From positions 1-34,877 of the forward strand of contig JQKK01000025.1 in the NCBI GenBank assembly GCA_000746015.1: a DNA stretch of 34,877 bases. The letters run 5' to 3'. The DNA is from Lachnospiraceae bacterium MA2020 (GTDB lineage Bacteria; Bacillota; Clostridia; Lachnospirales; Lachnospiraceae). The notes under the pieces are model-generated. The model made no database searches. It was not told where the DNA came from and saw only the letters and a list, made by a program, of their open reading frames with translations. Both the position numbers and the translations under genes were made by a program. Each line of letters opens with the position of its first letter. Positions within the stretch are counted from its first letter, which is position 1. Of this stretch, positions 12,671-29,159 are shown one piece after another.

Positions 12671-13546
12671 ATGGCTCGAACTATCGAAGAACTGGAGAAA
12701 AACCATCCCTGCTTTGGAGGATGTCGATTTAATGCAGGTAGAATTCATCTGCCTGTAAGTCCCGGATGTAATATAGCATGTAAGTTTTGTGACAGAGCGA
12801 TAAACGATGTAGAGGAGCGCCCTGGTGTCACCTCAAAGGTAATAAGCCCTGATGAAGCAAATAAGTTTATAGATAAAGCGCTGGAGCTCGTCCCCAACCT
12901 CAAGGTTGCCGGTATAGCGGGCCCCGGAGATACACTTGCTACAGACAAGGCATTTGAAACTTTTAGAAAGATCTCAAAAGGTCATCCTGAGCTCTTAAAG
13001 TGCATGAGCACAAATGGATTATTGCTCAATGAGAGAGCAGATGAACTTATCGAAGTCGGCGTAGATACGCTTACGGTAACGGTCAATGCAGTTGATCCGG
13101 AGATTGAAGCTCAGATAAACGATTACATTATCTACCATGACAAAATATACATGGGAGTGGAAGCTGCAAAGATCCTTATAAAAAATCAGCTTGCCGGCAT
13201 AAGAAAAGTAGCAGCGGCAGGAGTTACGGTAAAGATCAATACAGTACTTGTTCCCGGAATAAATGATGAACATATCGAAACGATCGCTAAAACCGTAAAG
13301 GAAGCGGGAGCTATAATTTACAACATAATCCCATTGATACCACAGCATAAATTAAGTCATATAAGCCGACCGACCTGTGAACAGATAGAAAAGGCGAGAG
13401 CGGAAGCAGAGAAACATATAAAAGTATTCAGACACTGCGCACACTGCAGGGCTGACGCAGTAGGTGTTCCGGGAGTATCAGAGTACAGCAGGCAGGTATT
13501 CCAGAACAGATTGATAAACGCAAGGGAAACATTTTCACATGGATGA
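12671..13546 (+). CDS. nifB: NifB-type radical SAM enzyme, cofactor precursor synthesis
   Basis: A 291-residue radical SAM protein that in nitrogenase systems fuses two [4Fe-4S] clusters with a carbide into NifB-co. Seen: radical SAM triad Cys33, Cys37, Cys40 (PGCNIACKFCDR); N-terminal HPC Cys14; GPGDTLA; LLKCMSTNGL (Cys111); and C-terminal CAHCRADAVG (Cys256, Cys259), all hallmarks of NifB rather than generic radical SAM. It lacks the fused C-terminal NifX domain, which is encoded separately by the next gene. The frame opens at ATG 12599, but that codon lies at the promoter; ATG 12671 follows GGAGG at 12661-12665 by 5 bases. It is the first gene of the operon and presumably feeds both DK pairs. 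Confidence 0.92.
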   Translation: MARTIEELEKNHPCFGGCRFNAGRIHLPVSPGCNIACKFCDRAINDVEERPGVTSKVISPDEANKFIDKALELVPNLKVAGIAGPGDTLATDKAFETFRKISKGHPELLKCMSTNGLLLNERADELIEVGVDTLTVTVNAVDPEIEAQINDYIIYHDKIYMGVEAAKILIKNQLAGIRKVAAAGVTVKINTVLVPGINDEHIETIAKTVKEAGAIIYNIIPLIPQHKLSHISRPTCEQIEKARAEAEKHIKVFRHCAHCRADAVGVPGVSEYSRQVFQNRLINARETFSHG

Positions 13547-13901
13547 TGGAAGATATAGAGTGGCAGCGGCTAGCTCCGATAATATCTGCGTAAATCAGCA
13601 TTTTGGAAGAGCGAGCAGATTTTTTATAGCAGATGTAGATGAAGATGGAAAAATCTATCCGATTGAAGAGAGAAATGTGACACCTATATGTCACAGCGGA
13701 CAGCATGATGACAAAGAATTAAAAAGGGCAGTTGAAGCATTATCAGATTGTGATATTGTGCTTGTTGCAAAGATTGGATACGGAGCATCTGAGGAGCTGA
13801 GAGAGCATGGCATATCAGCATTTGAAGTGCCGGGACTCATAGTAGAGTCAATTCAAAAGATAGATGCATACATTAAACTCATGAAGGAAATGTATGGATG
13901 A
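13539..13901 (+). CDS. NifX/NifB-C-terminal-like cofactor carrier
   Basis: A 120-residue dinitrogenase iron-molybdenum cofactor biosynthesis (NifX/NafY/NifB-C) domain protein: VAAASSDN start, VNQHFGRASRFFI with the conserved histidine (His21) of this fold, CHSGQHDDKELKRAVEAL, then ALSDCDIVLVAKIGYGASEELREHGI. Such proteins bind NifB-co or later precursors. Its ATG overlaps the last 8 bases of nifB, so it is effectively the detached second half of a two-domain NifB. It likely shuttles the cofactor to the NifDK-like apoproteins, since no NifEN is present. Confidence 0.85.
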   Translation: MDDGRYRVAAASSDNICVNQHFGRASRFFIADVDEDGKIYPIEERNVTPICHSGQHDDKELKRAVEALSDCDIVLVAKIGYGASEELREHGISAFEVPGLIVESIQKIDAYIKLMKEMYG

Positions 13902-13931
13902 TAAAAACTAATAGAAGAGGAGAATGAAAAA

Positions 13932-27867: not shown

Positions 27868-27869
27868 TT

Positions 27870-29159
27870 ATGTCTGAAATTATGGAAAATCCAAAAGGCG
27901 GATGCGTGCTTGCAGGCATAAATTCCGTCTTGGGTGCAATAGATAAAGTATGTCCGATATATCATTCGGGTCCTGGATGCTGTATGCAGTCAACTGCTGC
28001 GGATCAGGGACAGTCAGGTCACAAGAGTTCATGCTTTGTAAGCAGCGTGTCGATACCTTCAAGCAACATGCTTGAAAAGGAAGTCGTTTTTGGAGGTTTG
28101 GACAAGCTTAGAAGCACTATCAAAGGTTCGCTGGAGATCGTAGATGCTGATGCGTATTTTGTACTGACAGGATGCACAGCCGGAATAATCGGTGATGATG
28201 TTGTAAGTGTTGCTGAGGAATATAGAGCAGACGGACATGAAGTATATGCTATAGACACACCGGGTTTTGCCGGTGACAGCAACCTTGGATATGAGATAGT
28301 ATGGAATAATTTTATAGATAATATCATTGAAGAGCCAACTGAGAAAGATGAAAGGCTTGTAAATATTTTTGGTATAATTCCATATCACGATCCTTTCTGG
28401 AGTGGAACGCTGGAGGAAATCGACAGGATATTGTCAGGTCTTGGCTTAAAAGTAAATACATTTTTCACTAAGCATCAAAATATCGATACTATAAGAAAAT
28501 GCTCTAATGCAGCATTGAATATTATAGTAAATCCTTGGCTTTTCAAAGGAACTGCTGAGAAATTCGAGGAAAAGTTTGGTGTTCGTTCTTTAAGAATACC
28601 GGGTCTTTTTATAGGAGCAAGTGACACGACTGAATTTGTCAGGAGAGTTGCAGAGGCATTAAATCTGGATAAAGCTGAAGTAGACAGATATATCGATTCG
28701 GAAGAAGATTACGTATATAATTATCTCGCTCAGGCGATCGGTGTTGTGAGCTGGAAAAGATTTGCAGTAGTAGCTGATGCAAACAATGCTGTCGGAATCA
28801 CAAGATATCTTGCAAATGATTACAGTTTTACACCTGTTTTAGTGATCATATCAGAGCCGATATTCAGACCACAAGATAAAGAAAGGATCATATCGGAGAT
28901 AAGCAGGCTTGAATATGCTGAGCCGCCAAGAGTAGTATTTGCAACAGACCAGTATGAGATAAACAGGGAGATACGAGAGGAAAAAAAGGAGATTACCTTG
29001 CTCCTCGGCAGCAGTAATGAAAGGGAGATAGCCATTGAAAAGGATATCCAGTTCATCCTTGCTTCATTCCCGATGAACGAGAGACTTGTATTTAACAGAA
29101 CATATGCCGGATATAGAGGAAGTCTTACGTTTACTGAGGATATATACGACAACAACTAA
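27870..29159 (+). CDS. NifK-like beta subunit 2, non-canonical nitrogenase-like reductase
   Basis: A 429-residue beta subunit, again with a short N-terminus: Cys12 (KGGCVLAGINS), Cys37 in HSGPGCC (with Cys38 beside it) and Cys102 (VLTGCTAGIIGDD) match the three beta P-cluster ligands. Three cysteines argue against a NifN-like scaffold. Extra Cys28 and Cys55 are near the cluster region. GGAAGG is 8 bases before ATG, two bases after the D stop, so D and K are tightly coupled. Ends the second operon. Confidence 0.87.
   Translation: MSEIMENPKGGCVLAGINSVLGAIDKVCPIYHSGPGCCMQSTAADQGQSGHKSSCFVSSVSIPSSNMLEKEVVFGGLDKLRSTIKGSLEIVDADAYFVLTGCTAGIIGDDVVSVAEEYRADGHEVYAIDTPGFAGDSNLGYEIVWNNFIDNIIEEPTEKDERLVNIFGIIPYHDPFWSGTLEEIDRILSGLGLKVNTFFTKHQNIDTIRKCSNAALNIIVNPWLFKGTAEKFEEKFGVRSLRIPGLFIGASDTTEFVRRVAEALNLDKAEVDRYIDSEEDYVYNYLAQAIGVVSWKRFAVVADANNAVGITRYLANDYSFTPVLVIISEPIFRPQDKERIISEISRLEYAEPPRVVFATDQYEINREIREEKKEITLLLGSSNEREIAIEKDIQFILASFPMNERLVFNRTYAGYRGSLTFTEDIYDNN

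Follow-up and report, generated by a model that had tools for sequence, protein, structure and literature searches.

Results

Two nitrogenase-like DK pairs probably share one NifB and one NifH

The stretch that we analyzed, 34,877 nucleotides of Lachnospiraceae bacterium MA2020 (GenBank assembly GCA_000746015.1, contig JQKK01000025.1, positions 1 to 34,877; hereafter the window), encodes a NifB-type protein, a NifH and two nitrogenase-like DK pairs, D1K1 and D2K2, in which D1 and D2 are 28% and K1 and K2 34% identical. What do two such pairs do with a single NifB and a single NifH? We favor, with modest confidence, the reading that both are reductases that scavenge sulfur from organosulfur compounds under anoxia, and not nitrogenase. 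A first-pass annotation had listed nifB, one nifH, two DK pairs and two ATP-binding cassette (ABC) importers, and profile matches recovered each of these where it had placed them (Table 1). Its interpretation is partly supported overall; the relatives of the locus suggest a sulfur role, which was not part of its reading.

Both pairs fall in the clade that contains methylthio-alkane reductase

The best solved relative of all four subunits (D1, K1, D2 and K2) was MarD or MarK of the methylthio-alkane reductase (Mar; MarBHDK, group IV-C) of R. rubrum (9fmg, 9d9u). In trees of 73 D rows, 74 K rows and 43 concatenated pairs, which were quick trees with long branches present and with the Shimodaira–Hasegawa-like approximate likelihood ratio test (SH-aLRT) as their sole support, both pairs fell together with MarDK and further nitrogenase-like pairs in a single clade (SH-aLRT 98, 98 and 99% for D, K and the concatenation, respectively), apart from NifDK, NifEN and Vnf/AnfDK. 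Within this clade, D1K1 is sister to a group containing MarDK rather than a member of the MarDK clade itself, and D2K2 forms a deeper, separate lineage. In approximately unbiased (AU) tests, forcing D2 to group with NifEN was rejected (p-AU 3.2e-12), and forcing it to group with VnfEN was rejected less firmly (p-AU 0.011). Because both pairs lie in one clade with MarDK and the grouping of D2 with NifEN is rejected, neither pair is NifEN. The first-pass annotation had reached the same view from the three cysteines of the K proteins; that argument does not discriminate, since clostridial NifN keeps all three K-type cysteines in 6/6 nif clusters. An AlphaFold model of D2 (mean predicted local distance difference test score, pLDDT, 88.2) had MarD as its best match (template modeling, TM, scores 0.86/0.88), with no NifE among the top 50 matches listed, but the input alignment of the model contained Mar-like, NifD and NifE rows, which biases this structural match.

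Cofactor ligands and pocket residues differ between the two pairs

Both pairs keep all six P-cluster-type cysteines and the equivalent of Cys275, in agreement with the earlier description of two catalytic-looking complexes. In D1K1, these cysteines stand at the positions of MarD 66/91/158 and MarK 32/56/121, and all 11 members of the D1 clade retain (MarD numbering) Cys66, Cys91, Cys158, Cys270, Trp195, Phe199, His375, Arg428 and His429. In window numbering, the Mar cofactor ligands kept by D1 are Cys257 and Arg413-His414, with C257 and H414 present in 50/50 distinct sequences. The D1 pocket keeps Trp195, His375 and Gln74 of MarD, with Cys73 replaced by Asn and His194 by Ile.

The D2 clade presents a different picture. 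In 7/7 members, the four cysteines are kept, but the four-residue Arg428-His429 loop is absent and Trp195 and His375 are replaced. Two residues, C258 and H422, are invariant in 70/70 D2 sequences. His422 lies inside THVLDGKRPTMGYDG, where the spacing H-x2-D-x3-P-x2-G is that of the NifD His442 stretch. Profile-profile alignment places His422 directly on NifD His442; the MAFFT alignment is two columns off, and the aligned column is occupied by a His in clostridial NifE as well. For these two reasons we grade His422 as a probable cofactor ligand, judging from alignment. Given the His of clostridial NifE, this residue cannot decide between a scaffold and an enzyme. In a 2012 survey of nitrogenase-like proteins, His442 was reported in no nitrogenase-like alpha subunit then known (PMC3464626).

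Cysteine retention is not universal among nitrogenase-like proteins: a clade at loci L144, L156 and L137 has D proteins without two of the three P-cluster cysteines and without the cofactor Cys (Asp, Pro, Ser or Lys instead), and it nevertheless adjoins SsuABC-like importers.

NifB and NifH are genuine, and NifE and NifV were not found

With its likely start at 12671, NifB is ∼290 amino acids (aa) long, the commonest length among its relatives. It scored 272 bits against TIGR01290, below a cut-off (343.65) that is set for NifB with an X domain, and carries CxxxCxxC, HPC, ExRP, AGPG, TxTxN and CxxCRxDAxG, which we take to be NifB signatures. Judged by these features, it is a genuine NifB. Sequence scores likewise identify the window NifH as canonical and not of the MarH type (486 bits against Clostridium pasteurianum NifH, 291 bits against MarH).

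The MA2020 genome (3.72 Mb, 49 contigs, 100% complete) encodes PF00148 proteins at three sites: the window (D1, K1, D2 and K2), contig 15 and contig 5. Contig 15 (L095:8040-11109) holds a second NifH-like protein, 50% identical to the window NifH, and a fused 774-aa protein with two nitrogenase-component domains, by HypD/HypE/HypF. This NifH and its fused DK partner beside hydrogenase-maturation genes are a separate system. A second nifH elsewhere in the genome was among the findings that the first-pass annotation had named as refuting it; taken literally, such a gene exists, but the NifH of the window is the sole canonical one. The contig-15 arrangement resembles that of Coprococcus, where NifHEN-like genes lie by hydrogenase maturation genes (PMC3464626). 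On contig 5 (L096:6687-9079), two adjacent PF00148 proteins of 380 and 419 aa are found, and the stretch read there contains neither NifH nor NifB; their neighbors resemble, judged by sequence, a SpoIIE-type phosphatase and an RsbW-like kinase.

We searched 41 genomes for NifE, sulfite reductase and NifH: the MA2020 genome, 37 of the 38 D2-bearing genomes with D1, and three with D1 only. The set leaves out G657, which has a D1 fragment of only 182 residues, and the six D2-bearing genomes that lack D1; completeness is known for 4/41. A NifH 88 to 100% identical to that of the window was present in 40/41, with no match in G647. Ruminiclostridium hungatei (G656) gave seven NifH-like matches, including the NifH that belongs to its true nif cluster (78% identical), and further NifH-like matches in G000, G626, G631, G641, G660 and G661 were at most 54% identical. 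By these identities, the NifH of the D1 operon is the sole canonical NifH in most carriers. No NifE was found in 40/41 of the genomes searched, that of MA2020 among them (E≤1e-90), and no NifV of the MA2020 genome scored above the model cut-off.

These results bear on nitrogen fixation. Classical or alternative nitrogenase identity is ruled out by the clade, by the Gln191/His195 positions and by the lack of NifE and NifV. A narrower proposal is that one or both pairs are a minimal group IV nitrogenase that fixes N2 without NifEN. Endomicrobium proavitum, with group IV genes and NifEN absent, is reported to be such a diazotroph (PMC9147875, PMC11257099). The canonical NifH is in keeping with it, a NifEN-free nitrogenase exists in Roseiflexus (PMC11573651), and to Igai et al. 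nothing spoke against counting such gut bacteria as fixers (PMC4995403). However, Gln191 and His195 of clostridial NifD are replaced by Trp and Phe in D1 and by Cys and Phe in D2, NifV and NifE are missing as described above, and the neighbors in related loci are cysteine and methionine genes. We consider N2 fixation by either pair very unlikely.

Each DK pair occurs without the other

In the species collection, 185 stretches encode a relative of D2. The best 80 of the 185 were kept, which are the closest by design; they are 83 to 92% identical, and 32/80 also hold D1 within the fetched stretch. That so many stretches carry D2 relatives, with conserved co-occurrence, argues that the arrangement is not due to chance. 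When 44 of these 80 loci were used to count co-occurrence by genome, D1 was found in 38/44 D2-bearing genomes, including 8/8 named isolates; the other six are draft metagenome-assembled genomes. In a sample of the class that comprised 391 genomes, 12 had D1 relatives (E≤1e-120) and four had D2 relatives. Three of the four D2 genomes also have D1 (the D2 of the fourth is 43% identical and its genome 73% complete), and 9/12 D1 genomes lack D2.

This distribution bears on a further alternative, in which only D1K1 is catalytic and D2K2 serves it as scaffold or maturase, as a NifEN analog that arose in a Mar-like lineage. The frequent company of D1 and D2, a gene order like nifBHDK(X)EN, the His of clostridial NifE aligned with D2 His422 and the weak rejection of a D2–VnfEN grouping all speak for it, and scaffolding was suggested by Dos Santos et al. 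for linked DKDK sets (PMC3464626). On the other hand, D1K1 is the only DK pair at E≤1e-40 in G477, G150 and G489 (96 to 100% complete; D1 89, 86 and 82% identical to that of the window, respectively), most D1 genomes of the class sample have no D2, and Mar itself works without NifEN. The converse case is L078, one of the six draft genomes without D1, in which nifB-X-nifH-cysK leads straight into X2 and D2K2 is present with D1K1 gone from an otherwise intact operon; no D1 was found in this genome at E≤1e-100. D2 is also kept from NifEN by the AU test, and its His422 is invariant, whereas in NifE a strong ligand of the His442 type is said to be missing, so that the cluster can leave (PMC13031127). 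Since each pair occurs without the other, the sequences favor two enzymes that share NifB and NifH, and the usual presence of D1 beside D2 is explained if the D1 operon supplies NifB and NifH. A scaffold role for D2K2 is thus unlikely in our estimate.

Two related arrangements may be mentioned. Ruminiclostridium hungatei (G527/G656) has 25 PF00148 matches (E≤1e-40), which include true nif, Vnf/Anf-like, Mar-like, D1K1 and D2K2 proteins. Searches of plasmids returned rhizobial nif for the most part, but also Treponema saccharophilum and Chlorohelix; plasmid pTS2 of T. saccharophilum (L168) carries two sets, one K-D and D1-like and the other D-K, together with metY, cysK, nifB and nifH, and its plasmid location is a possible route of spread.

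Relatives of the locus adjoin sulfur-assimilation genes

A cysteine-synthase paralog lies directly before D1 in 40/50 genomes (38 by open reading frame call and two by tblastn under an antisense open reading frame); in the remaining ten, either NifH (eight) or a contig end (two) takes that place. The count of 50 excludes eight duplicates, in which a genome stood under two loci. In L049, this paralog scored 318 bits against the cysK model (cut-off 351), so its acceptor may be altered. A cysK-like gene stands before nifB in 16/21 loci and was above the cut-off in the one gut locus scanned for it (L049) and in T. saccharophilum. PatB-type C-S lyases, cystathionine-gamma-synthase-like proteins, CysE, ThiF/MoeB-rhodanese proteins and a D-cysteine-desulfhydrase-family gene also occur beside the pairs. 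The T. saccharophilum plasmid has the order metY-cysK-nifB-X-nifH-LysR, then the K-D and SsuABC-like-D-K sets, and in Chlorohelix metY is near nifB-X-nifH-D-K. The MA2020 genome itself encodes two MetY proteins above the cut-off, both outside the window.

Such links have precedents. According to Dos Santos et al. (2012), nitrogenase-like proteins with the Cys275 equivalent commonly adjoin O-acetylhomoserine sulfhydrylase or cysteine synthase, some are accompanied by ABC transporters, and Syntrophobotulus has linked four-gene DKDK sets (PMC3464626). Group IV-A MarHDK-like genes linked to CysK, MetY and PatB are described in the mlp paper (PMC10418091), and nifDK homologs with cysteine synthase in a termite spirochete (PMC13067680). 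Because they are already published, the sulfur link and the presence of several DK pairs per NifH are known in kind.

The PF01077 sulfite reductase was not found in 38/41 genomes, that of MA2020 included, and was found in 11/14 control genomes. We therefore favor a product at the level of thiol or sulfide as more useful to these cells than sulfite. This observation bears on the proposal that D1K1 (or D2K2) releases sulfite as a sulfonate reductase of the isethionate type, whose substrate the aminotransferase and the GldA-like enzyme would make from taurine-like compounds. R. capsulatus does this with IsrBHDK and SsuCAB (PMC11423573), the operon in the window carries an SsuABC-like importer, and the aminotransferase and dehydrogenase together would turn taurine into isethionate. 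By description, IsrBHDK also shares with our locus a group IV DK pair with a radical S-adenosylmethionine (SAM) gene and a setting in sulfur assimilation. IsrD, however, has one of the three P-cluster cysteines and no Cys275, and IsrB is BciD-like rather than NifB-like (PMC11423573), whereas D1 and D2 keep all of these cysteines and the NifB of the window appears genuine; moreover, with no sulfite reductase in the genome, sulfite would not be assimilable by the usual route. Isr identity in the strict sense was thus ruled out by the cysteine pattern and the missing sulfite reductase, and sulfite release by either pair seems improbable to us.

The same absence admits a second proposal, in which D2K2 is a multi-electron reducer of sulfite or sulfonate to sulfide that replaces the absent siroheme sulfite reductase and feeds the co-encoded cysteine synthase, its cluster bound by Cys258 and the nitrogenase-type His422 while that of D1K1 is bound by the Mar-type His. 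Genomes with D1K1 as the only pair (G477, G150 and G489) also have no sulfite reductase, so D1K1 would give usable sulfur alone or another route exists. This counts against D2K2 as a stand-in, a role to which we give little credence.

A model for organosulfur reduction

We propose that NifB makes an [Fe8S9C]-type cluster, that the NifX-like proteins carry it and that NifH delivers ATP-driven electrons to both pairs. D1K1 would hold the cluster as methylthio-alkane reductase does, via Cys257 and His414, and would reductively cleave the C-S bond of a substrate that is imported by the SsuABC-like importer and that the aminotransferase and the dehydrogenase may first trim. D2K2, supplied through the cystine-type importer of its own operon, would act on a second sulfur compound with its cluster held by Cys258 and probably His422. 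The resulting thiol or sulfide would pass to cysteine synthase or to homocysteine- and methionine-forming enzymes. The substrates of both pairs and the role of D2K2 are unproven proposals drawn from sequence comparison.

Several observations weigh against this model. Two MarD pocket residues, Cys73 and His194, are gone in D1 and the NifH is not of the MarH type, so Mar and D1K1 may not have the same substrate; D2 lacks Trp195 and His375 of Mar, which makes its reaction a guess. The window has no cysK or metY beside these genes, and the sulfur link rests on relatives. Among those, a sulfur gene is in the stretch in only 43/79 D2 loci, many of them on short contigs (L083, with no recognized core open reading frame, was left out of this tally), and the density of sulfur genes is uneven (16.5% inside, 15.0% at 0 to 2 kb, 7.3% at 2 to 4 kb, 0% at 4 to 6 kb and 6.0%, 10/167 genes, at 6 to 10 kb). 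The binding-protein gene of the importer adjoining D2 is interrupted: an in-frame TAA at 23719 splits it, with intact copies in relatives. Finally, N2 fixation is reported for E. proavitum, which likewise belongs to group IV and has no NifEN (PMC11257099, PMC9147875).

If the model is correct, the presence of a NifH that satisfies all nifH criteria signals sulfur scavenging in many rumen and gut Lachnospiraceae and Treponema, and the nifH of such bacteria may have been misread as a "nitrogen-fixation" gene. Igai et al. (2016) described human-gut nifH sequences 94 to 98% identical to Lachnospira/Butyrivibrio NifH as those of candidate N2 fixers, with the cofactor His lost in some associated NifD proteins and kept in others (PMC4995403). 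These sequences may belong to the D1-linked NifH family, and a mixture of D1 and D2 would yield such a mixed His pattern. None of the Butyrivibrio genomes searched has a canonical NifH other than that next to D1, so the N2-fixer inference may need revising. More generally, clostridial nifH is said to overstate diazotrophs (PMC8597730). The two known His-ligand arrangements, nitrogenase-type and Mar-type, possibly occur together in a single operon, a point relevant to the evolution of the nitrogenase cofactor site; the Mar structure paper states that the ancestral His could not be inferred (PMC12552129). Both enzymes are testable in cultured strains; the system is encoded, for example, in the genomes of the cultured Butyrivibrio hungatei and Eubacterium ruminantium.

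Comparison with known systems

Like Mar, the locus has a NifB partner and no NifEN, MetY/CysK neighbors in relatives and, in D1K1, the six P-cluster cysteines, Cys270, the Arg428-His429 loop, Trp195, Phe199 and His375. It differs from Mar in the sister-clade position of D1, the replaced Cys73 and His194, a canonical NifH in place of MarH, the second pair without the His429 loop and the dedicated importers. In Heliophilum fasciatum, too, multiple DK pairs occur with a single NifH-like protein and with NifB and NifX, and NifEN is absent (PMC9147875), but its NflH groups with MarH whereas the window NifH is canonical; NflDK1-5 were compared by published description. NfaHDK of Endomicrobium (group IV-A), compared by description alone, is also a NifEN-free group IV set that keeps the cysteines (PMC4995403, PMC9147875) but is reported to fix N2. 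NifEN and VnfEN share with our locus a second DK pair downstream of the first and NifX-like genes; D2K2, however, falls outside both clades (p-AU 3.2e-12 and 0.011), and each pair occurs alone in some relatives.

The first-pass annotation had not recognized the layout as one already described. Five NflDK with one NflH in H. fasciatum (PMC9147875) and the DKDK sets of Syntrophobotulus (PMC3464626) make it less novel in general terms, but the titles and abstract openings listed in our literature searches gave no account of a conserved gut operon with two DK types, a canonical NifH and differing His arrangements.

Organization of the locus

All genes of the locus (11573-29159) are on the + strand (Table 1), with NifS, NifU and an Rrf2 regulator just upstream. 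The division into two adjacent operons proposed earlier fits the 14-bp stem and T run at 23191-23224, much the longest stem among terminator-like sites (15 found versus 11.0 in shuffles); a scan for sigma-70 promoters gave no excess (44 sites versus 49.5 in shuffles). The LysR-type protein is probably the regulator of the locus, and LysR genes are present in several related loci too. The HisC-like gene is also linked with GldA/Ssu in L079 and L133/L086, and a part of the aminotransferase and the GldA-like dehydrogenase in substrate processing is possible. NifX-like protein 2 contains a Cys/Gly-rich insert, CSQKGCGNGGGCGG, that is not in NifX-like protein 1.

Table 1. Genes and other features of the locus, in window coordinates
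Feature	Position	Strand	Basis
LysR-type regulator (probable), directly 5′ of nifB	11573..12478	+	NCBIfam LysR matches, none above equivalog cut-off
NifB-type radical SAM protein lacking a NifX domain (probable start, 12671)	12599..13546	+	TIGR01290 272 bits; six motifs
NifX/NafY-like cofactor carrier 1	13539..13901	+	PF02579 70 bits
Canonical-type NifH, putative shared electron donor	13932..14780	+	TIGR01287 467 bits, cut-off 394
D1, predicted MarD-like catalytic subunit	14793..16259	+	Best solved match MarD 9fmg, E 3.8e-89; residues; trees
K1, MarK-like partner, three P-cluster-type Cys	16283..17581	+	MarK E 9.2e-112; residues
NifX-like carrier 2, Cys/Gly-rich insert	17593..17997	+	PF02579 39 bits; sequence
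HisC-like aminotransferase	18022..19209	+	TIGR01141 316 bits, cut-off 277
GldA-like metal-dependent alcohol dehydrogenase	19124..20206	+	NF006941 242 bits (under 336 cut-off); PF00465
SsuA-SsuB-SsuC-like ABC importer	20239..23176 (20239-21366, 21363-22181, 22178-23176)	+	TIGR01728, TIGR01184/SaoA and TauC/NtrB matches, all under cut-off
Intrinsic terminator-like hairpin between operons	23191..23224	+	14-bp stem, then T7
Polar-amino-acid/cystine-type ABC importer	23371..26405	+	NCBIfam cystine/glutamine-type matches, under cut-offs
Cystine-type importer, binding protein	23371-24222	+	
Cystine-type importer, permeases	24226-24927, 24896-25693	+	
Cystine-type importer, ATPase	25563-26405	+	
D2, second catalytic-type subunit (predicted)	26422..27867	+	MarD best solved match, E 1.9e-70; residues; trees; model
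K2, partner of D2, three P-cluster-type Cys	27870..29159	+	MarK E 1.1e-69; residues

Just 3′ of K2, two genes on the - strand (29385-30897) resemble an AbiE-type toxin-antitoxin pair.

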